Assembly (NCBI GenBank): GCA_030679035.1
Contig: JAUXTH010000210.1
Coordinates: 1-42,292, forward strand
Reading direction: 5' to 3'
Length of the DNA: 42,292 nt
From: Methylobacter sp.
GTDB taxonomy: Bacteria; Pseudomonadota; Gammaproteobacteria; Methylococcales; Methylomonadaceae
Shown: positions 5,931-20,526 of the stretch, piece after piece
How positions within the stretch are numbered: position 1 is the stretch's first letter
Layout of the letters: each line of letters opens with the position of its first letter
Program-made: the position numbers and the translations under genes
Notes under the pieces: model-generated
The model's database searches: none
Seen by the model: the letters and a program-made list of their open reading frames with translations, nothing else
Told to the model about the DNA's origin: nothing

Positions 5931-6200
5931 TTACAGGTGCACTAAGGCTTTCCATTTTAGAGCGGGTTGCAGCGTGAAGTACAGCGCGCAGTGCGCCGGA
6001 AACGCCGGTTTTTGCTTGCGCTCAAACAGACTTATGGGCTACAAAACTGGAAAGCCGCACTGAACGGGTTTACTATTCAGTTTGAAGACAGGAACCGGGC
6101 CGTTAATTTAAACCCCGTTGACACAAAACAAAGGACCCCCCCCCATGAACAACAGGATTATGTGCCGAAACGTCAGACAATACACAGCCTGTGGAAACCA

Positions 6201-8177
6201 ATGGTAACCCATAAAAAACACAGGCCGAGACTGCCGATATTTTCCACCGGCGGGAAAGTTGTTTTTATTATTTCCCTGTTTGTACTGATTTCGGTATTGC
6301 TGGGCGGCATGATTTTTTCGTACGGCAATATTTTCGACGGCGTGCGCTCCTATGTCAGGGGCGAAGGTTTGTGGGCCAAAGCGCAGAAGGATGCCGTATT
6401 GTATCTGAGCAGTTATTCCTATAATCATTCGGAAACCGATTACAACGCTTATCAGGAAGCTCTAAAGGTCATCAGTGGCGATAAGACTGCCCGGTTGGCA
6501 CTGTTGGAATCCCCGCCGAACTACGAACAAGCGAGAAAAGGCTTTTTGCAGGGACAAAACCACCCTGACGATATAGATTCAATGATCGGGTTCTTTTTAA
6601 CATTCCAGCGCATTTCCTATATGCGCGACGCTATCGTTATCTGGCAATCTGCTGATCAAACCATCGACGAATTGAAGCAGGTAAGCGAGCAAATTCGAAT
6701 TGAAATCAACGCATCAAACCCAAAGTCCGAAAAACTAATCGAATTGAGAGAACGCTTGCAGCATATCAATGATGAACTTCATCAACTGGAAAATCGCTTT
6801 TCACTGACCCTGGGTGAAGGAGCAAGATGGGTTAAACAAACGACATGGCGCGTTACCGTGCTGGCACTGGTCATTTTTATCGGTATCGGACTATGGGTCA
6901 GCCGTCAGATAATCAAGGGGATCACCAAAGCGGAACAACAACTGATTATCAGCGAGTCACGGTTTCGAAGGCTCAAGGAGTCGAATACGATCGGCATTAT
7001 TTCCTGGCGGATAGATGGCTTGATCGAGGAAGCGAACGATCTGTTTTTAATCATGACCGGCTATGACCGGTCAGATATTTCGACCGGTGTCATCAACTGG
7101 CGGGATATTACACCGACTGAATTTCAGCACCGGGATCAACAAGCCGTTAATGAGCTTTTAACACAGGGCCGATGCGAGCCTTTCGAGAAAGCCTTGATCC
7201 ATAAACAGGGTCACTGGGTGCCGATCTATATTGGCGCGGCCATGCTCGGCGGCAATCAGGAGCAAGGCATTGCTTATGTTATGGATCTGAGCGAACGCAA
7301 AAAAGCGGAGCAGCAATTAAAGTTGGCGGCGACGGTGTTTGCCGGCAGCAGCGACGGGATTTTGGTTACGGATCCATCGACGCGTATCGTTTCGGTCAAT
7401 CAGGCGCTTTGCGCTATGACAGGCTACGATGAAAGCGAATTAGTGGGTCAGCCTACGTCAATCTTACAATCGGGTTATACCAGCGACGAAGAATATAACC
7501 GAATGTGGGAGTCGCTGAATACAAGCGGCCAATGGCAGGGCGATATTATTGATCGGATGAAAAACGGCGCCTTAATACCGATGAGAGCCAGCATTAACCA
7601 GGTAAAAAACGCCGACAACCAACTCACGCATTATGTCGCCATCCTGTCAGATATCACCGAACGCAAGGCGGAAGAAGAGCATCTGCGTCATGTCGCTCAT
7701 CATGACCCTTTGACCGGATTGGCGAACAGGGTGCTGTTCAATGACCGACTTGAGCAGTCCATTAAAGTGGCGGCGCGCAACCATACCAAATTTGCCTTAT
7801 TGTTTCTGGATTTAGACAAATTCAAACCGGTTAACGATCTTTTCGGACATAAAATCGGAGATAAGCTATTGCAGAAAGTTGCTGATAGGCTCACCCGAAG
7901 CGTCCGCGAAGCTGACACTGTCACCCGGTTGGGCGGTGACGAATTCGTCATACTGCTTGGGAATGTTACCGACCAGGAAATGGTTGAAAAACTACTTAAT
8001 CAGATTATCGATGCAATAGGTAACACTTACCATATTGATGATTACGATATCGAAATTGGCGTAAGCGCCGGAATAAGCATTTATCCCAACCATGGGACCG
8101 ACGCTAAAACGCTGTTGCATCAAGCGGATATAGCGATGTACGAAACAAAGGCATCAAAAAGGGATCATGCTCTCTAA
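6201..8177 (+). CDS. Membrane diguanylate cyclase, PAS-PAS-GGDEF
   Basis: The frame is open from 5967, but the ATG at 6201 gives the natural start of a membrane sensor (658 residues). The order is: a membrane segment at about residues 15-40, a periplasmic domain of about 160 residues rich in helix-forming charged residues, a second membrane segment (LALVIFIGIGLWVS), a first PAS domain, a second PAS domain (ILVTDPSTRIVSVNQALCAM), then a GGDEF domain with HHDPLTGLANR and RLGGDEF. The inhibitory I-site (READ, five residues before GGDEF) is intact, so it should make cyclic di-GMP with product feedback. There is no EAL domain. A run of nine C (6136-6144) sits upstream behind AAGGA, in front of an out-of-frame ATG at 6145, so the true start is uncertain. 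Its 3' end faces the hybrid kinase gene, 13 bp away. Confidence 0.88.
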   Translation: MVTHKKHRPRLPIFSTGGKVVFIISLFVLISVLLGGMIFSYGNIFDGVRSYVRGEGLWAKAQKDAVLYLSSYSYNHSETDYNAYQEALKVISGDKTARLALLESPPNYEQARKGFLQGQNHPDDIDSMIGFFLTFQRISYMRDAIVIWQSADQTIDELKQVSEQIRIEINASNPKSEKLIELRERLQHINDELHQLENRFSLTLGEGARWVKQTTWRVTVLALVIFIGIGLWVSRQIIKGITKAEQQLIISESRFRRLKESNTIGIISWRIDGLIEEANDLFLIMTGYDRSDISTGVINWRDITPTEFQHRDQQAVNELLTQGRCEPFEKALIHKQGHWVPIYIGAAMLGGNQEQGIAYVMDLSERKKAEQQLKLAATVFAGSSDGILVTDPSTRIVSVNQALCAMTGYDESELVGQPTSILQSGYTSDEEYNRMWESLNTSGQWQGDIIDRMKNGALIPMRASINQVKNADNQLTHYVAILSDITERKAEEEHLRHVAHHDPLTGLANRVLFNDRLEQSIKVAARNHTKFALLFLDLDKFKPVNDLFGHKIGDKLLQKVADRLTRSVREADTVTRLGGDEFVILLGNVTDQEMVEKLLNQIIDAIGNTYHIDDYDIEIGVSAGISIYPNHGTDAKTLLHQADIAMYETKASKRDHAL

Positions 8178-8190
8178 GCATCCCTACCCA

Positions 8191-10212
8191 TTATGAAAAG
8201 TCGGCATCGCATAGCAATTTAGTAATCACTTCAAAATCGAATTGATTGATCCGCTCTGCCAACACATCAGCTAAAGGTGCGTCAATTTCTCTAATTTGTT
8301 CAATCACGGTCAGGCTTTGCTCTATATCCAAACTCATGGTCGCCCGCTGTAATTCAGACAATAGCGCATCGGGCAGGCGTTTTAAGCGTTGCTCATTAAG
8401 CAATTGCTCGGTAACGCTTTTCTCATTAACCGGCTCATCGTAAATAAAGCTCACACCTAAATGTTTTGCCATGCAGTCGAAAATCTCGGCATCACGATAG
8501 GGTTTGCCGACAATATCATCGATACCTGAATTTAAAAACTCTTGCCGTTGTTCTGCAAAAATCGATGCGGTGACGGCAACAATTTTCACTTTATCGCCAC
8601 CGGGCAAAGCGCGAATTTTTTGCGTGGCGGCGATGCCATCCATAATGGGCATGCGTCTGTCCATCCAAATAAAATGCGGCTGCCAATGTATAAATTGTTC
8701 TACGCCTTGTTGACCATTTACCGCTTCATGCACCTGAAAACCGACGAATTCCATCAACCTTTTCAGCAACAGCCGATTTTCCAGTTGATCCTCAACAACC
8801 AAAACACGATAGTCAGGCTGTCCCGCCGCTAACCCCAGCACTTGCTTACCATCGAGAACGGTTTTGTTGATAATCTCTGACTGGTCGACCTTGGCCGCGG
8901 GTAACGTTAAGATAAACGATGATCCTTTATTCAATTCACTGGTAACGGTAACTTGCCCGCCCATTAATTCGGCATATTGTTTGGTAATCCGCAGCCCTAA
9001 ACCGCTGCCTTGTTGATCGGATTCCCTGCCGACTTGTACAAACGTATCGAAAATAAACGGCAAATCCTGTTCGGCAATGCCGATACCGGTATCTTTAATC
9101 TCGCAGATTAAGAGGCATTGCTGAGTATCGGGCAAATTTTCAGCCGTTAAGCGCACAATAACGCGGCCTTTTTGCGTGTATTTAATGGCATTGCCCACCA
9201 AGTTAAGCAAAATCTGCCGGAATTTTGCTTCATCGCTATTAACAAATCGCGGAAAACTGGACGATTGATCCAGAAACAATTCCAATCCTTTGGCTTCGGC
9301 GCGTTGGTGCATCATGTCAATGGTATCGCGAATGAGCGCGCCTAAATCGAAATTACCGTTTTCAATGATTACACGCCCCGCCTCGATTTTCGCCATATCC
9401 AACACATCATTAATCAACCCCAGTAAATGCTTACCGCTGTTGTTGATAATGTTCAGGGTTTCACGTTGTTCAGGGCTAAGACCGCTGTCTTTTTGCATTA
9501 ACTGCGAAAATCCCAGCACGGCATTCATCGGGGTGCGTAATTCATGACTCATGTTAGCCAAGAAGATACTTTTGGCGCGATTAGCCGCTTCCGCTTCATT
9601 TTTTGCCGCTAATAATTTTTGCTCTGTTTGCTTACGAATAATAATTTCTTGCTGCAATAAGTTATTGACGTTTTGTAAACGGGTATGTCCGAGAATTTCA
9701 TTCTTTAAAACCAGCGCGGCGTAATTAAAAAAGAGCGGCAATTGATTATACAAATCGCGCATGGCGATATGCAGGCTTTCCATTTTGAACACGCCGATCA
9801 CCGTCGAACCGACTTTGAGCGGATAAATCCATGTGTACGCATGGGTGAAAGCGGGTGTCAGCATCTGGGTATCGCTAAAATCATGCTCATATTCACTGGC
9901 ATCGCCTGTGGCGAAGGCGCTGATAACGCACTCATCATCCAGTTGTTGCAGGTGTTTTTTCACGCCATACACATCGGCATAGAAAATATCCGCATCGATT
10001 TTGTAATACAGGATCAGGTTCGCCCCGCCGATAACATCGACAATTGAACGCAGCATATTATCGATGACATTTTCCAATCCTGAGGCTTCACTCATTTTAC
10101 TCATCAACTGCATGACCAGTTGTTGATTGGATTTGTCCAAGGCGAGTTTTGTAGCGCGTTGTTTGAGCTTATCCCAGTCGGCAACGGAGATGGTCATTAG
10201 TTCATTGGTCAT
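8191..10212 (-). CDS. GAF-like hybrid histidine kinase with receiver domain
   Basis: This protein of 673 residues has no membrane segment, so it should sense a cytoplasmic signal. Residues of about 40-170 resemble a GAF domain. A coiled coil (about 175-215) leads to the dimerisation domain with MSHELRTP (phospho-acceptor His223), then a HATPase domain with DTGIGI and GSGLGL motifs. A receiver domain follows (VLVVEDQLENR, phospho-acceptor Asp in IWMDRRMP, lysine in VGKPY). About 85 C-terminal residues follow; no classical HPt motif is obvious. Its start overlaps the end of the DUF1638 gene by 11 bp, so the two are translationally coupled. It is the last gene of the corrinoid operon, and a phosphorelay to the HD-GYP regulator at the operon's head is a reasonable inference. 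Confidence 0.9.
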   Translation of the reverse strand: MTNELMTISVADWDKLKQRATKLALDKSNQQLVMQLMSKMSEASGLENVIDNMLRSIVDVIGGANLILYYKIDADIFYADVYGVKKHLQQLDDECVISAFATGDASEYEHDFSDTQMLTPAFTHAYTWIYPLKVGSTVIGVFKMESLHIAMRDLYNQLPLFFNYAALVLKNEILGHTRLQNVNNLLQQEIIIRKQTEQKLLAAKNEAEAANRAKSIFLANMSHELRTPMNAVLGFSQLMQKDSGLSPEQRETLNIINNSGKHLLGLINDVLDMAKIEAGRVIIENGNFDLGALIRDTIDMMHQRAEAKGLELFLDQSSSFPRFVNSDEAKFRQILLNLVGNAIKYTQKGRVIVRLTAENLPDTQQCLLICEIKDTGIGIAEQDLPFIFDTFVQVGRESDQQGSGLGLRITKQYAELMGGQVTVTSELNKGSSFILTLPAAKVDQSEIINKTVLDGKQVLGLAAGQPDYRVLVVEDQLENRLLLKRLMEFVGFQVHEAVNGQQGVEQFIHWQPHFIWMDRRMPIMDGIAATQKIRALPGGDKVKIVAVTASIFAEQRQEFLNSGIDDIVGKPYRDAEIFDCMAKHLGVSFIYDEPVNEKSVTEQLLNEQRLKRLPDALLSELQRATMSLDIEQSLTVIEQIREIDAPLADVLAERINQFDFEVITKLLCDADFS

Positions 10213-10798
10213 GCAAGCTTTCCAATTTATGCCTGATGGCGGTGTGTAGGACGCTTTCGAGATGATCCAGAGTCACATCGCGCCATTGCACAGGTAAGTC
10301 CAGCATGGCGCCGATTTGCGAGGCTTCCCGGCTGAAATCATCGGATTGCGGCGTGCGCAGGCACAACAGATAGCGGTGCTGGTCATGGAAAATATCGCGA
10401 ATAACGGCGATATTCGAACCGAATGTCTTGGCAATAACGGCATCCCAATTGCGTACCCAGTCATCCAATAAAAAGAACGCACCTTGAGTCAGTTCCCTAT
10501 TAAATTCTTCCGCGCCTAACAGCATTTCAATACAATTTTGTCCCGATGTTCGCAGAGTACGTCCATCATTCAGCATCTTATCCATTCCCGGATGGCAGGC
10601 CCCGTAAAAGACGATGGTTTGTTCATTCTCATGTCGAGCTAAACCGTCATGTAAAGCGCAGGCCAGGCGTTTGAAGTCGATATGCAACGAGGCAGGCAGA
10701 AAATCCGTTGTCAATGCCCAGTTATTTTTTGCAATTAAATAGCCCACTTCTTTTTGCAAAATGCCGCAGCCGACCAGGCTTAGTGTTGATGGTGACAT
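10202..10798 (-). CDS. DUF1638 family protein
   Basis: I chose the ATG at 10798 (198 residues) because it begins directly with the family's conserved strand; an in-frame GTG at 10837 would add 13 residues. Conserved features are visible: LVGCGILQKEV at the N-terminus, a central strand ending FYGACHPGM, and CIEMLLG, giving three well-spaced Cys residues plus a His that could bind a metal or cofactor. DUF1638 proteins are, from general knowledge, often encoded beside corrinoid methyltransferase components, but their function is unproven. Here the gene lies between the methyltransferase-like gene and a hybrid histidine kinase, overlapping the latter by 11 bp. That coupling suggests it serves as a signal-input or corrinoid-related partner of the kinase. 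Confidence 0.8.
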   Translation of the reverse strand: MSPSTLSLVGCGILQKEVGYLIAKNNWALTTDFLPASLHIDFKRLACALHDGLARHENEQTIVFYGACHPGMDKMLNDGRTLRTSGQNCIEMLLGAEEFNRELTQGAFFLLDDWVRNWDAVIAKTFGSNIAVIRDIFHDQHRYLLCLRTPQSDDFSREASQIGAMLDLPVQWRDVTLDHLESVLHTAIRHKLESLHDQ

Positions 10799-10824
10799 TT
10801 TACTGTTCAGCCAGATCGACAGAT

Positions 10825-10907
10825 AAGGCGAAGGCACAGGGTTAAAGGCGAAAAAACCAGCGCGTCAACACGCCCGCCCTTAGCCTTTCGTCTTTCGCCT
10901 TTCGCCT
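10825..10907. repeat. Degenerate inverted repeat (AAGGCGAA / TTCGCCTT)
   Basis: Left-arm elements AAGGCGAA (about 10825-10853, occurring twice) face TTTCGCCTTTCGCCT (about 10886-10907). It occupies the 151-bp gap between the methyltransferase-like gene and the DUF1638 gene, the only sizeable gap in this operon. The transcript could fold here, giving partial termination or a processing point. A related repeat lies at 20460-20526. Confidence 0.5.
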
Positions 10908-10949
10908 CACTCTTGATAATGTCCATCTGCGTAATCCGTGACTGAATAA

Positions 10950-11978
10950 TTAAAATTGCCCGAATTCATAAACAGCATCCAACATCGCCCTGATATTACG
11001 CTCAGGGATTTTGTACGGCATTAAAATGGTGCCGAAAAGAAATTTATTCCCCGCCATACCCGCCGCCAACATGCGTTTCACTTCTTGCCTGATTTCCTCT
11101 TCCGACCAATCAATGAGTTTAATGTCATTGATAACGCCGCAGGTCAGGCCGCGGCCGTTGATGATTTGTTTTCCTGTCGCAATATCATCCAAGGGGCTTA
11201 AATAATAAGTCTTGATGCCGATTTGCGAAATAATGGATTCAATGACCTGATTAAACCGCGCCCCGCCGCAGTAATAGACGATGCCTTGTGTGCCTGCGCT
11301 TAAATCTTGTTTCATCCACGGTATGCCGGTTTTGATGATGTATTGCAGCGGCATAAAATCGGTAGAGCCGAACGGGTTGGCATAGACAATCACATCGACG
11401 CCCAATTCCCTCAACGCGGCGATATGGCGCTGGCAAAATAAAGAACATTTGGCTAACAACTCATCGCGCACTTCCGGCGGCCCCATGAATAATAATTCAA
11501 ACCATTTATCCATGCCCATTAACAATGCGGGCAATGCCATGCCGGCTGTCACATAGCCGCAAATCGGGTAACGCCCGCCGACTTCCCGCTTCAAGATTTG
11601 CAGACATTTCAATTCTTCGGCAAAAACGGGGTGGTGGATAATGTCGTCCGGAATTTCCAGGTTGTGAATATCGTCATAAGACTGGATAACAAAGTGCTCA
11701 ACATTCGGCGGGCCGTCGGGCGAAAATAAAATCTTTTGACAGCCCAATAATTCCGCTTCTTTGCCGACATAAAACAGGCTCCATACGTTATCGTAACCGT
11801 ATTTTTCCCGCATTTTCAGCTGCCCTTCGGCAACATACTCGCCACTTTGATAATAATCATGCAAAGAAGCCAAACCCAATTCTTTAGCGCCTTGATCCAA
11901 TAAATTGCAAAACACCGGAATCCGGTCCGCCTTTTCGCCCTTTATTGCCGCGACCAATCTGTCCATTCCAGTTATCAC
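10950..11978 (-). CDS. UroD/MtaA-family corrinoid methyltransferase-like protein
   Basis: This 342-residue protein has the uroporphyrinogen decarboxylase fold typical of MtaA/MtbA/CmuA-type methyltransferases: the N-terminal segment (DRLVAAIKGEKADRIPVF), the middle (CGYVTAGMALPALLMGMDKWFELL cut here as GYVTAGMALPALLMG), and the C-terminal helix (PERNIRAMLDAV). MtaA-type enzymes bind zinc through HxC plus a late Cys. Here the motif reads YYC (Tyr235, Cys237), so His is replaced, and the late region (about 312-328) has no Cys. It therefore probably does not use the classical zinc-thiolate mechanism, in line with a host that should lack coenzyme M. It overlaps the corrinoid protein gene by four bases, strong evidence for partnership. 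A methyl transfer between the corrinoid and another acceptor such as tetrahydrofolate is inference. Confidence 0.82.
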   Translation of the reverse strand: MITGMDRLVAAIKGEKADRIPVFCNLLDQGAKELGLASLHDYYQSGEYVAEGQLKMREKYGYDNVWSLFYVGKEAELLGCQKILFSPDGPPNVEHFVIQSYDDIHNLEIPDDIIHHPVFAEELKCLQILKREVGGRYPICGYVTAGMALPALLMGMDKWFELLFMGPPEVRDELLAKCSLFCQRHIAALRELGVDVIVYANPFGSTDFMPLQYIIKTGIPWMKQDLSAGTQGIVYYCGGARFNQVIESIISQIGIKTYYLSPLDDIATGKQIINGRGLTCGVINDIKLIDWSEEEIRQEVKRMLAAGMAGNKFLFGTILMPYKIPERNIRAMLDAVYEFGQF

Positions 11979-12643
11979 TTGTGCATCCCCATGATTAAAT
12001 CCTTAATGACCTTGCCTGCTGAAATACCGTCGCTTGCCCACGCGTCCGCCAGCACAACGTTGTAAAGTTCGGTATCCCATGTATAAGGTGCGCCGCCGAC
12101 TATAATTTTAATACGGCCTTCCAACTGGCGTTCTTTAAGCAATTGCCGCACGGCAAGACAACCGTATTCACTGCGGGCGGTATGCACCATCATCGAGGAA
12201 ATGGCGATAATGTCGGCATTGTGTTCCAGCGCGGTATCGACAAAGCGCTCGGCACTGACATTGACGCCTAAATCAATCACATCAATCATCAGTGAGCGCA
12301 AACAGCCGCTGACGATGCGCTTGCCCAGCGTATGCATATCGCCGTGTGATGTGCCGATGACTACGCGGCCAATGGTTTCAGGGCTTGTTTGAAACTGCGC
12401 GACCATTTCATCGGTGACTTGGGAAGCGATTTGCGAAGCCATGAAATGTTGGGCAAGATTGGCATCGAAATCTTCACTGATGGCTTTAATCATCTGTTCC
12501 ATCGAAGGAATCACCACCTTAAAAACAATGTCCTCAGGCGTAACGCCCTGGGCGATTGCTGCGTGAATGACTTCGAATGCCTTATCGCGATCCGTGTCAA
12601 AAACGGCTTCGCTGTAAGCTGCGATAACTTTTTCCAGTATCAT
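11975..12643 (-). CDS. Corrinoid-binding methyltransferase protein (MtaC/MtbC-like)
   Basis: This 222-residue protein has the two-part layout of methyltransferase corrinoid proteins: an N-terminal helical cap (about 1-90) and a Rossmann B12-binding domain. The signature DxHxxG is present as GDMHTLG, with His104 as the expected lower cobalt ligand. Further on, ISSMMVHT and IIVGGAPYTWD match the conserved strands that surround the nucleotide tail. The gene lies 11 bp after the RACo-like activase and overlaps the UroD-like gene by four bases. It would carry the methyl group on cobalamin in the cytoplasm. No MtaB, MttB, MtbB or MtmB-type substrate methyltransferase is encoded nearby, so the methyl donor is unknown. 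Confidence 0.92.
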   Translation of the reverse strand: MILEKVIAAYSEAVFDTDRDKAFEVIHAAIAQGVTPEDIVFKVVIPSMEQMIKAISEDFDANLAQHFMASQIASQVTDEMVAQFQTSPETIGRVVIGTSHGDMHTLGKRIVSGCLRSLMIDVIDLGVNVSAERFVDTALEHNADIIAISSMMVHTARSEYGCLAVRQLLKERQLEGRIKIIVGGAPYTWDTELYNVVLADAWASDGISAGKVIKDLIMGMHK

Positions 12644-12654
12644 AAAATTCTCAG

Positions 12655-14217
12655 TTAAGCTAACGGCATCGGCTGCAAATAAAGATTATCGACAAAGACT
12701 TCTTCATAAGCGCTGACTTGCGACAAATTAACCATTTCAACATTGCGCCTCAGTTCATTTAATTGTTCATCACGATGAGGGCTGGAAAGCAATTGCTCAC
12801 AACCCATTAGCGCGGCATTACCGCACAATTCGACGCTTTCAGCCGCACAATCCGGCAATAAACCTAAGGCTTGCGCATGTTGAATGTTTAAAAACTGCCC
12901 AAAAGACCCCGCAATGCACAGCCGTGTTAAATCCGCCGATGACGCCCCTGCGATGCTAAGCAGTTTACTAATACCGGCACCTGTAGCCGCTTTGGCACGT
13001 TGAAAAATATCAATATCCTGTTTTTTAACAGTAACACGATAATGCAAATTGACTAACTCAATTTCCAATTCGGAAACCGCTTTGGCAAAACGACCATTTT
13101 TTTTCAACTGTCCCGATGCCAGCAAACAGGCCATCACATCGCATAAACCGGAACCGCATAATCCTTTAATCTCGCTTGCGTCGGTCAATGTGCCGATCAA
13201 TGTGCCGTGAAACTCTCCTGTCGCGGCATCATAATCAACATGACTAATCGCCCCCTGTTCGGCGGCAACACCGCAGCTGATACCGCAGCCTTCAAACGCA
13301 GGGCCGCCGGGGACGGAAGTGATCCATAATTTGTTCTGATGCCACAAGGCTATTTCGGTATTGGTACCGAAATCAACGAACAACGCACTGCCCGGACTGT
13401 CCGTTAAACGCACCGCCAGTAAGCCGACCAATAGATCGGAACCGACAAAACCGGCTACCGGCTGAACAGACGCAATGGGGATTTGCGTTTGCCGCAAGGT
13501 TGAAAAATTTAAAGAACAATCGATGGCTTGCGTCCAATACGCGGGTTGCAATAATTGTTCGGCATGTTTGTTGGCCAGCAATGCCAACATCGCGGTATTG
13601 CCGACAATCAGAATTTCCGTAACAGTCAATTTTTTAGTGTCTATCCACTCCGTCACCACCCGCTCTACCGTGTCGTGTATCAACTCGCTCATCGCCGGCC
13701 CTGCGCTTTTATCCGTCGTAGCGGCGGTCAAGCGATTCAGTATGTCCGTGCCGTAGTAGGTTTGCGGATTAAATCCGCAATACCCCACGATACGCCGCTG
13801 ATGCACGCTATCCCAAAGACTGATGCGTATTTGCGTCGACCCCAAATCAACGGCCACCGCATAGCGGGCATCAGCTGTTGCCAACGGCGAATGAATGCTT
13901 AAAGTATCCAGCGCCTCGATAGCCAGCGGATTAATGAGGCTAACACTGGCGTGATCAAACAACGTAATTTGGCAGGCTAGACGAATGCCTTGGGCGATTT
14001 GCCCTGCGCTAAGATGCTTTTGTTCATACTGCGTCAACTCACTGGCAGCGCCTTGGTCGATACGCACCAGACACAGGCCGCAGGTACCTTTGCCCTGACA
14101 CGCTGAACGCACCCGCGTATGCTCGTACGTTGCCAACAAGTTGAATAAGTTGCAAGGTGATGCGAAGGGAATATCGGCGATGTGCCGATGGTTTAAGTTA
14201 ATCGAAAGTATGAACAT
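12655..14217 (-). CDS. RACo-like corrinoid activation protein (DUF4445, 2Fe-2S)
   Basis: This 520-residue protein begins with a plant-type ferredoxin domain: Cys40, Cys46, Cys49 and Cys82 give the C-x5-C-x2-C-xn-C pattern. A linker follows, then the ASKHA-type ATPase domain of RACo proteins (AVDLGSTQIRISLWD, IVGNTAM, FVDFGTNTEIALW, GSGLCDVMA, AGSFGQFLN). RACo enzymes use ATP to drive reduction of inactive Co(II) corrinoid to Co(I), which rescues oxidised methyltransferases. It lies directly upstream of the corrinoid protein (11 bp), its obvious substrate. Its presence argues that the corrinoid protein cycles through Co(I) and is catalytically active, because a merely B12-sensing protein would not need it. 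The start ATG follows the HD-GYP gene by nine bases. Confidence 0.9.
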   Translation of the reverse strand: MFILSINLNHRHIADIPFASPCNLFNLLATYEHTRVRSACQGKGTCGLCLVRIDQGAASELTQYEQKHLSAGQIAQGIRLACQITLFDHASVSLINPLAIEALDTLSIHSPLATADARYAVAVDLGSTQIRISLWDSVHQRRIVGYCGFNPQTYYGTDILNRLTAATTDKSAGPAMSELIHDTVERVVTEWIDTKKLTVTEILIVGNTAMLALLANKHAEQLLQPAYWTQAIDCSLNFSTLRQTQIPIASVQPVAGFVGSDLLVGLLAVRLTDSPGSALFVDFGTNTEIALWHQNKLWITSVPGGPAFEGCGISCGVAAEQGAISHVDYDAATGEFHGTLIGTLTDASEIKGLCGSGLCDVMACLLASGQLKKNGRFAKAVSELEIELVNLHYRVTVKKQDIDIFQRAKAATGAGISKLLSIAGASSADLTRLCIAGSFGQFLNIQHAQALGLLPDCAAESVELCGNAALMGCEQLLSSPHRDEQLNELRRNVEMVNLSQVSAYEEVFVDNLYLQPMPLA

Positions 14218-14226
14218 TGTTGCCTG

Positions 14227-15285
14227 CTATTCATTTTGAGTGTATTTATTTCGAATAGCGATAAAGTCATCCAAATGATCAAAAAACAGCGTAACCATGC
14301 TCGGATCAAAATGATTGCCTTTTTCTTGTTGAAAAATCTCTAAAATTCTGTCCAGACTCTTCGCGGGCTTATAGCATCGTATAGCCCCCAGTGCATCGAA
14401 CACATCGGCAACAGCGGTAATACGTCCTGCGACACTGATCTCTTCACCTTTAAGACCGGAGGGATAGCCGGTACCGTCCCATTTTTCATGATGTTCCAAA
14501 GTAATAGTCGCCGCCAATTTAAATAACGGGCGTTGTGACACACTGAGCATCTGAAAACCCAAATGACTGTGAGTTTTCATAATCTTCCATTCTTCAGCGG
14601 TTAATTCTCCTGGTTTATTCAAAATACTATCTGGAATAGCCACTTTGCCGATGTCGTGCATGGAAGCGGCTTGTTTTATCAGCTCCAGCTCTTCATAACC
14701 ATATAGTTTTGCCAATAAATACGAATATTCTGCGACACGTTTTACATGCAATCCCGTTTCATGAGAACGGGTTTCACAAATCTGCCCCATGGTAAAAATA
14801 AGTTCTTGCTGAGTATCAATGATTTCCTGATTCAAAACCTCAATTTCATGGATGTTAAAAGCTATTCTTGCTTCCATATCATCTTCATAGGCTTTTAATT
14901 GTAAATGGGTAGCAACGCGAGCCTTTACTTCTTCAAATTGAAAAGGTTTATTAATATAATCAAGAGCGCCCACATTAAAAGCTTGGATTTTATCGGCAAC
15001 ATCATTTAATGCGCTGATAAATAACACAGGAATATTTTTTGTTTCAGGATTGTCTTTTAACGCCGTACAGACTTCATAACCACTCATTTCAGGCATTTTA
15101 ATATCCAGCAGAATCAAGTCCGGCTTTTTTGTAGCAACCGCTTGTAATGCCATAGCGCCATTGTTAGCAGGCCGTACTTTATAACCCTCTTCCTTTAACA
15201 GAGTCGATAATAGCTGCAAGTTAGCCAACGTATCATCGACGATTAAAATATCCGCTGTATATTCCAAAGGTAATCCTTTAAGCAT
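14227..15285 (-). CDS. Response regulator with HD-GYP phosphodiesterase domain
   Basis: The frame is open to 15339, but the ATG at 15285 (352 residues) puts the receiver domain at the N-terminus as usual. The receiver shows ILIVDDT, the phospho-acceptor Asp in LILLDIKMPE, and the Lys in INKPF. A coiled-coil linker follows. The HD-GYP domain has HETGLHVKRV, HDIGKVAIP, HHEKWDGTGYP and ADVFDAL, all metal and substrate residues present, so it should hydrolyse cyclic di-GMP. It is the first gene of the corrinoid operon (nine bases before RACo). The hybrid kinase at the operon's end is the natural phospho-donor. The GGDEF protein encoded just beyond that kinase would supply the opposing activity. 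Confidence 0.92.
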   Translation of the reverse strand: MLKGLPLEYTADILIVDDTLANLQLLSTLLKEEGYKVRPANNGAMALQAVATKKPDLILLDIKMPEMSGYEVCTALKDNPETKNIPVLFISALNDVADKIQAFNVGALDYINKPFQFEEVKARVATHLQLKAYEDDMEARIAFNIHEIEVLNQEIIDTQQELIFTMGQICETRSHETGLHVKRVAEYSYLLAKLYGYEELELIKQAASMHDIGKVAIPDSILNKPGELTAEEWKIMKTHSHLGFQMLSVSQRPLFKLAATITLEHHEKWDGTGYPSGLKGEEISVAGRITAVADVFDALGAIRCYKPAKSLDRILEIFQQEKGNHFDPSMVTLFFDHLDDFIAIRNKYTQNE

Positions 15286-15590
15286 GAGTTTGATGAACCT
15301 AAAAATTTGTGCGCAAAATAACACGCAGAGTGAAAACAATAAAACCCAACTTGATGCGCCGACACTTTTTCGGGCACAAAATAGAGAATCTCCATGTCAT
15401 TGAAAATGGTTAACGGTTCCCGCGTTAGCTTATAAAGAATAGTACGTTAAAGACCGAATTCGTCAATAGCCGCCAGGAATAATTATCGGCAACAAATCAA
15501 CGATCTGAATTGATTACGATAACGGGATGACTAAACCGGCATTAAATCTGTAAAATAGCGGTTTTTTATTGTCCAGCTCCTTAAAACATA

Positions 15591-20459: not shown

Positions 20460-20526
20460 AAAGGGCGAAGGGCAAAAAAGCAGTCGTTGTTGGCGTCTGA
20501 TTCTTTCGCCTTGCGCCCTTCGCCTT
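20460..20526. terminator. Inverted repeat between convergent apt and mlaA
   Basis: AAAGGGCGAAGGGC (20460-20473) pairs with GCGCCCTTCGCCTT (20513-20526) with one or two mismatches. It sits seven bases after the apt stop and directly after the mlaA stop, so it can act as a shared terminator. Its composition matches the degenerate repeat at 10825-10907. Confidence 0.55.

Follow-up and report, generated by a model that had tools for sequence, protein, structure and literature searches.

A corrinoid methyl-transfer module as a probable sensory front end for histidine kinases and cyclic di-GMP enzymes

Described corrinoid systems and the Methylobacter operon

The nearest described arrangement to the operon analyzed here, six genes on the minus strand at positions 8191 to 15285 of a 42,292-nucleotide stretch of Methylobacter sp. 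DNA (the window), is the mec cassette of dichloromethane fermenters. Like the operon, this cassette brings together, in a single cluster, a histidine kinase, a receiver protein, a corrinoid protein, UroD-superfamily proteins and the MecGH proteins, which serve in reactivation (PMC9768040, in excerpt). It differs in being metabolic, with a methyltransferase II (MTII), MecF, a transporter and a PocR sensor on the kinase, and the excerpted text names no cyclic di-GMP (c-di-GMP) enzyme. In Phaeobacter, a RamA-like protein and a DUF1638 protein, the two protein kinds that also occur in the operon, act together: they share fitness patterns with methionine synthase and are important for methionine synthesis, and B12 reactivation was inferred from these fitness data (PMC5764234, in excerpt). 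The Phaeobacter pair, however, serves a split methionine synthase, and the excerpts, in which the authors (Price et al.) offer no specific proposal for the role of DUF1638, name neither a kinase nor a c-di-GMP enzyme. The CdmBC chloromethane system of Acetobacterium dehalogenans, compared in its report with UroD-type O-demethylases, likewise combines a zinc-free UroD-superfamily substrate methyltransferase, a corrinoid protein and an activating enzyme (PMC13222342, in excerpt), but it is metabolic, has an MTII (CdmA), and its UroD-superfamily protein is only distantly related to the UroD family of the operon.

CarH and the photocobilins also use a B12-binding protein as a sensor, but they are light sensors that share only the B12-binding domain with the operon. 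Neither is known to have UroD, DUF1638 or RACo, the reductive activator of corrinoid proteins, as a partner. Among methanogens, MsmS-type kinases are tied to methylotrophic corrinoid systems and regulate methyltransferases; they sense through haem in their own GAF or PAS domain. No description of a module such as that of the operon was found in the open-access literature. Only one of its parts, the N-terminal sensor domain of the kinase, which we call Nsens, falls outside the named families. The novelty lies in the apparent use of a corrinoid module, activated by RACo, as an input stage for kinases and c-di-GMP enzymes in many phyla; should the sensor reading developed below hold, the principle itself would be new.

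Open reading frames (ORFs) and Pfam matches, all above cut-off, give the six genes in the order and with the spacing that a first-pass annotation of this DNA had described. The first gene encodes a REC-HD-GYP response regulator of the c-di-GMP phosphodiesterase family (14227..15285, minus strand, as are all six; Pfam Response_reg and HD_5), whose ORF is open from a TTG at 15339. It is followed by a RACo-type activator with a 2Fe-2S domain and an ASKHA ATPase domain (12655..14217; Fer2, Raco_middle and RACo_C_ter), a corrinoid (B12-binding) protein (11975..12643; B12-binding_2 and B12-binding), a methyltransferase-like protein of the UroD superfamily that lacks the MtaA zinc site and is a candidate substrate methyltransferase (10950..11978; URO-D), a DUF1638 protein (10202..10798; DUF1638, 4.5e-28), and a hybrid histidine kinase comprising a sensor domain, HisKA, HATPase and a receiver (8191..10212; HisKA, HATPase_c and Response_reg). 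Nsens, the GAF-like N-terminal part of this kinase (9577..10212), has no Pfam match. From the coordinates, 9 bp separate the HD-GYP and RACo genes and 11 bp the RACo and corrinoid genes, the corrinoid and UroD genes overlap by 4 bp, 151 bp lie between UroD and DUF1638, and the DUF1638 and kinase genes overlap by 11 bp. By Pfam, the HisKA and HATPase domains and their receiver partners make this a two-component system. The HD-GYP domain and a GGDEF domain encoded next to the operon exceed the Pfam cut-off and show catalytic motifs by eye in the translations, and both proteins are predicted enzymes; the regulator has a receiver Asp and residues that we take to be the HD and GYP motifs. The host assembly, a draft of 4.79 Mb in 216 contigs, is listed with 100% completeness and 2.52% contamination. 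Judged from the sequences, the operon is probably a corrinoid-based sensor that is read by kinases or c-di-GMP enzymes.

Association of the module with signalling genes

A profile made from eight Methylococcales UroD proteins gave 121 relatives, of which the best 80 were surveyed as loci; some Methylococcales loci (such as L023, L024 and L025) recur among the 80. A corrinoid protein stands beside UroD at 79 of these loci, Nsens was scored at 69, DUF1638 at 67, and RACo beside the module at 47. At 76 of the 80, a signalling gene lies no more than 1.5 kb downstream of the module; the same was true of 40 of 363 control ORFs situated more than 5.5 kb away. Three of the remaining four loci (L069, L085 and L103) end less than 700 bases past the module, and the fourth, L070, runs into a contig-cut ORF that matches ETR1_N (5.6e-30) and, weakly, PAS. 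The 69 Nsens proteins lead into kinases in 54 cases (29 kinase-receiver, 21 kinase, 2 contig-cut kinase and 2 DUF1638-fused kinase), GGDEF-EAL in three, HD-GYP in one, and no output by profile in 11, of which 7 are cut. Pfam searches with eight of these 11 (L038, L039, L041, L047, L048, L049, L057 and L062) found a kinase in L057 and a terminal HisKA in L062; five others have PAS or GAF domains, and L041 gave no match. One locus in a Chloroflexi bin (L042:11059-18351) encodes a 2430-aa protein that combines Nsens with numerous PAS and GAF domains and ends in an HD-GYP domain.

By record title, the carriers belong to about a dozen phyla (Proteobacteria, Nitrospirae, Chloroflexi, Bacteroidetes, Ignavibacteria, Verrucomicrobia, Hydrogenedentes, Acidobacteria, Planctomycetes and others), many of them as metagenome-assembled genomes (MAGs) in which bin errors are possible. 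A tree of 58 UroD sequences mixes phyla, with 18 label changes for a minimum of 10, to which bins and paralogues may contribute; the UroD of the window clusters with its Methylobacter kin, outside a well-supported 19-member clade that holds Methylomonas proteins. Transfer is likely on this sequence record. Among 96 scanned operon neighbours (of 128), PAS, HAMP, periplasmic binding, MCP, CheW, glycosyltransferase and TonB families recur, the periplasmic binding types being phosphonate-binding, NMT1 and ABC_sub_bind. No corrinoid methyltransferase is among the 25 commonest of the 154 Pfam families in these neighbours, so that no standard substrate methyltransferase, which the first-pass annotation had considered as a possible usual partner, appears there.

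Within the Methylococcales, 12 of 61 genomes have DUF1638, the host being one of them, and neighbourhoods of up to 20 kb place the corrinoid module beside kinase and HD-GYP or GGDEF genes. This arrangement persists at only 37–65% identity of the module proteins and with a different kinase architecture. Gene order around the operon (ProS and downstream genes) is shared with the Methylobacter relatives L024 and L025, the latter being the same stretch as L029 (M. tundripaludum SV96). The HD-GYP gene lies upstream of RACo in L023, L024 and L025, has moved in L022, follows the kinase in L016 and L017, and is replaced by receiver-GGDEF-EAL genes in other relatives. In place of RACo, L022 has a Cache-PAS-GAF kinase, a periplasmic protein of the phosphonate-binding type and a second HD-GYP regulator, while RACo is encoded elsewhere in that genome, at L021. 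At L158:13130-16000 (minus strand), a 956-aa protein in which a receiver is fused to a full carbohydrate (glycogen) phosphorylase is encoded upstream of RACo-corrinoid-UroD-DUF1638.

The first-pass annotation had proposed a system for sensing or salvage of methyl groups or C1 compounds whose state is relayed to c-di-GMP, had known of none with this make-up in an aerobic methanotroph, and had tied this idea to conservation of the kinase and HD-GYP genes in relatives. Sensing coupled to signalling is strongly supported, almost every relative having a kinase next to its corrinoid genes, whereas the HD-GYP gene is conserved only in part. The relay to c-di-GMP is just one of several outputs (30 of the 80 loci have a gene for GGDEF, EAL or HD-GYP no farther than 9 kb away), histidine kinases being dominant, and carriers are not limited to methanotrophs.

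Nsens itself was characterized from 69 sequences. Residues 1–212 of the window kinase match no Pfam family, and 26 of the 69 relatives have weak GAF_2 matches (E < 0.1). G62, G63, P131 and L132 are invariant in the alignment (A2), and an AlphaFold2 model built from it (mean predicted local distance difference test score, pLDDT, 88.5) matches GAF structures in Foldseek, among them PDE5A (3.1e-07) and NifA (5.3e-05). No Cys is conserved in Nsens, and the column in which His is most frequent has it in only 42 of 69 sequences, so that the domain is unlikely to supply a metal ligand itself, in contrast to the haem sensing of MsmS-type kinases. Among 251 genomes of the order, in each of which the best 12 Nsens and best 8 UroD candidates were scored, Nsens is present in 44, always as one copy, and no match fell in the E-value range from 2.5e-60 up to the limit of 1e-8. 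At that limit, the UroD profile has matches in 56 of the 251, 47 of them at E < 1e-80 (the close class). Nsens and close-class UroD occur together in 43 genomes, less than 4 kb apart (Fisher 1.4e-42, a value that ignores shared descent); in the single genome with Nsens and no UroD (G249), the contig ends in DUF1638. Nsens is tied to the corrinoid module within the order.

We regard fusions of DUF1638 as the strongest evidence, at the level of sequence, that these corrinoid proteins belong to signal transduction. DUF1638, Nsens and kinase form one protein in L064 and L071 (Geobacter and Trichlorobacter). A second, divergent class, with UroD matches of about 1e-55 to 1e-61, occupies eight places in the order; here the corrinoid protein and UroD are followed by DUF1638-PAS-GGDEF in L147, L151 and L153, and DUF1638 is fused to a kinase in L027, L148 and L152. 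For a Pfam cut-off of 27 bits, DUF1638 scores 28.5 in L147, 29.8 in L148, 34.5 in L152 and 31.8 in L027; L151 and L153 score below it (24.6 and 25.2 bits) and match our own DUF1638 profile at 3.8e-13 and 3.1e-11. All seven aligned corrinoid proteins of class II retain the corrinoid motif. Two further candidates were not counted as fusions, L149 because its DUF1638 match is in a different reading frame from the kinase, and L150 because it matches our own profile only and not Pfam; L154 is a cut class I locus.

Another kind of fusion joins the corrinoid protein to UroD (L068, L070, L072, L074, L075 and L086). Nsens is present in L086, and in the other five loci it is replaced by ETR1_N, the input domain of ethylene receptors. 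These ETR1_N sensor proteins, which are kinases (that of L070 is cut) from Gallionellaceae, Methylobacillus and others, are encoded downstream of DUF1638 and carry a C-G-x-T-H motif. The motif has a copper-binding role. Going by sequence, the ETR1_N loci hint, indirectly, at small volatile ligands.

Chemistry of the module and competing explanations

The corrinoid protein has the cobalt-ligand motif DxHxxG (D102, H104 and G107), which is found together with S149 and GG183-184 in 55 of 55 aligned sequences, and its relatives in the PDB include 1y80, MttC (7xcn, 6.9e-27), MtmC (3ezx, 1.2e-21) and 8j2w (2.3e-09). The RACo domain set is complete, with an N-terminal 2Fe-2S domain, the RACo middle domain and the C-terminal ASKHA domain all above their Pfam cut-offs, and an FeS-type pattern (CX4-6CX2C..C) is present in 43 of 47 relatives. 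UroD matches MtaA (4ay7, 7.7e-20) and CdmB (9rui, 1.7e-07, a weak profile match) in the PDB; it reaches 82 bits against the NCBIfam MtaA/CmuA model (cut-off 235) and 78 bits against the MtaA model (cut-off 400). In the alignment to 4ay7, at the places that we take to be those of the MtaA zinc ligands, none of 58 sequences has HxC and none has a Cys at or around the third place. On account of the missing zinc ligands, a methylcobamide:coenzyme M (CoM) methyltransferase of the MtaA/MtbA kind was rejected, and the description of this protein as MtaA-like applies to the fold alone. Six Cys positions are kept in 53–57 of the 58 sequences (alignment A4), and mean column identity is 68%. CdmB is a haloalkane-specific UroD-superfamily substrate methyltransferase whose structure contains no zinc and whose activity is unchanged by EDTA or zinc (PMC13222342). 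Because CdmB works without zinc, the loss of the zinc site counts against a CoM-type acceptor enzyme and not against a substrate methyltransferase (MTI). By analogy with CdmB, MtvB and CmuA, UroD-superfamily proteins that act as substrate methyltransferases according to the same excerpts, the UroD of the operon may be an MTI, and the operon, which had been called orphan, may contain its substrate enzyme after all.

In DUF1638, C11, C68 and C89 are kept in 61 of 61 sequences and one His in 60 of 61 (alignment A3), and these residues possibly form a metal or corrinoid site. A sequence search for a solved structure gave nothing significant (best E 0.74), and the predicted fold, modelled apart from that of Nsens, gave only low-TM matches to the PDB (best E 4.7e-04, TM 0.28), none of them confident.

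The genome was also examined for enzymes that could supply or accept a methyl group. MttB (PF06253) is absent from the 216-contig draft genome, as had been stated earlier for the locus (the MtaB, MtmB and MtbB families were not searched), and so is MtrH (PF02007). Pterin-binding proteins are limited to one of 287 aa, taken as dihydropteroate synthase, and a MetH of 1234 aa that carries its own Met_synt_B12 reactivation domain (2.1e-133). B12-binding domains occur at six places in the host, namely MetH, the operon and four others in ORFs of 467–587 aa. The host draft genome therefore contains no dedicated MTII of the pterin-binding or MtrH type that belongs to three-component corrinoid systems. 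Among 50 carriers tested (of the 80), many of them MAGs and perhaps incomplete, a short, weak MTII-like pterin protein, judged by frame length and E-value, is absent from 41; it is present in nine (L033, L035, L036, L040, L042, L048, L055, L058 and L060). The earlier suggestion of methyl-group salvage is not supported, as no acceptor enzyme of the tested kinds was found beyond MetH.

In the mechanism that we propose, RACo would use ATP and its 2Fe-2S cluster to reduce the corrinoid protein to Co(I), and UroD would be the receptor enzyme, either methylating Co(I) from an outside donor or keeping the corrinoid protein readable. With no dedicated methyltransferase to take the methyl group onward, the cobalt state, Co(I) versus CH3-Co(III) or Co(II), would persist as the signal. 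DUF1638 would read it together with Nsens, and the kinase would pass phosphate to the HD-GYP regulator and so change c-di-GMP; in other lineages, different kinases and GGDEF-EAL or HD-GYP outputs would be plugged in. How information flows, in which direction the phosphorelay runs and what constitutes the signal are our inference, a methyl donor being preferred as the signal and redox state or O2 coming second. A more specific form of this proposal is plausible rather than probable: UroD would methylate the Co(I) corrinoid from an environmental donor such as a methyl halide or another small volatile, methyl-cobalt would be stored as the signal with no acceptor enzyme, RACo and DUF1638 would act to reset the system, and the signal would reach kinases and c-di-GMP enzymes in many phyla through domains that can be exchanged for one another, whether GAF-like, ethylene-receptor-like or fused DUF1638. 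In this form the module would represent a new receptor class in which sensing proceeds through covalent chemistry. If the sensor reading is right, a B12 protein would supply sensory input through its organometallic methyl chemistry or its redox chemistry, DUF1638 and a widespread nameless family of GAF-like sensor domains would gain a function, and the presence of corrinoid methyl-transfer genes beside kinases in methanotrophs, iron oxidisers, Desulfuromonadaceae and Chloroflexota would be explained. Sensory rather than metabolic use of B12 chemistry is suggested by modules that adjoin, or in some cases are fused to, kinases and c-di-GMP enzymes.

Several observations weigh against this sensor reading. 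L021 has RACo, the corrinoid protein and DUF1638 without UroD, its kinases lying upstream, and L158 carries the module with no adjacent kinase. Four UroD-bearing genomes of the order (G005, G020, G253 and G090) lack Nsens; the first three have a PAS kinase in its place (loci L016, L017 and L157), and G090 has no adjacent kinase. At 13 of the 80 loci, some of which are divergent or cut, DUF1638 was not scored, and at 33 the module has no RACo next to it, so that these proteins either act from elsewhere or are not always needed. The Nsens profile was built from module-linked genes and the UroD profile from kinase-linked genes, and the survey was capped at 80 of the 121 relatives, so that more distant ones with metabolic neighbours would have escaped it. 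There may also be a methyl acceptor of a kind other than those tested.

The main rival is a redox or oxygen sensor, in which the signal is the oxidation state of cobalt alone: O2 would take Co(I) to Co(II), RACo and ATP would re-reduce it, and UroD would be a structural cap. The family function of RACo provides such an ATP-driven reset, the MtaA zinc ligands are missing from UroD, and several carriers (Gallionellaceae, Mariprofundus, Magnetococcales and methanotrophs) appear to favour oxic-anoxic borders. We consider this reading rather unlikely, since the identity and six kept Cys of UroD exceed the needs of a cap (the loci, however, were selected for UroD), methyl transfer needs no zinc in CdmB (PMC13222342), and RACo is often not nearby. 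Sensing of a methyl donor best fits the retained UroD. Still less likely is a metabolic demethylase or dehalogenase cluster with its own two-component regulator, on the model of mec with its MecA kinase and receiver protein. The excerpts on mec do show a PocR kinase and a receiver paired with corrinoid, UroD-superfamily and MecGH reactivation proteins (PMC9768040), and UroD could be its MTI, but the tested kinds of MTII are absent from the host beyond MetH, most carriers tested lack a pterin-type one, the commonest neighbour families include no corrinoid methyltransferase, and the outputs include c-di-GMP enzymes, with DUF1638 fused to GGDEF and kinase domains.

Two further explanations are very improbable. 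Reactivation of methionine synthase is suggested by RACo and DUF1638, the same protein kinds as in the Phaeobacter system (PMC5764234), and was rejected because the host MetH contains its own Met_synt_B12 domain; in addition, the operon has its own corrinoid protein. A B12 light sensor resembling CarH or the photocobilins would be consistent with the relation of the corrinoid protein to the cobalamin-binding structures 8j2w, 8j2x and 8j2y, the last of which is called a GGDEF protein. We take these three to be photocobilins, and alkyl-cobalt bonds are photolabile. The corrinoid protein is, however, closer to MttC and MtmC than to 8j2w, light sensing leaves no role for RACo, UroD or DUF1638, and the photocobilin paper (PMC10979010) never uses the words corrinoid, methyltransferase or histidine kinase.

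The convergent diguanylate cyclase gene and the 151-bp gap

Convergent with the operon is a gene for a PAS-GGDEF diguanylate cyclase (5967..8177, plus strand; Pfam GGDEF, 3.3e-50, and PAS), which the first-pass annotation had overlooked. Its end is 13 bp from the kinase gene, and its true start probably lies downstream of 5967. Of five close relatives, L022, L024 and L025 have the gene at the same position, with 80–85% identity over long matches; L018 has a short match only, and L023 has none.

No RNA family reached the cut-off in the window. The 151-bp gap between UroD and DUF1638 contains a terminator-like hairpin (10874-10859) followed by Ts, although the count of the hairpin scan was not above that of shuffled sequences. 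Short repeats, GGCGAAAGRCGAAAGGC, lie at 10883-10906 in the same gap, where hairpin and repeats together occupy 10859-10906 (minus strand), and a further copy with two mismatches is found at 20508-20524. The repeat in the gap is possibly a dispersed repeat that splits the operon.

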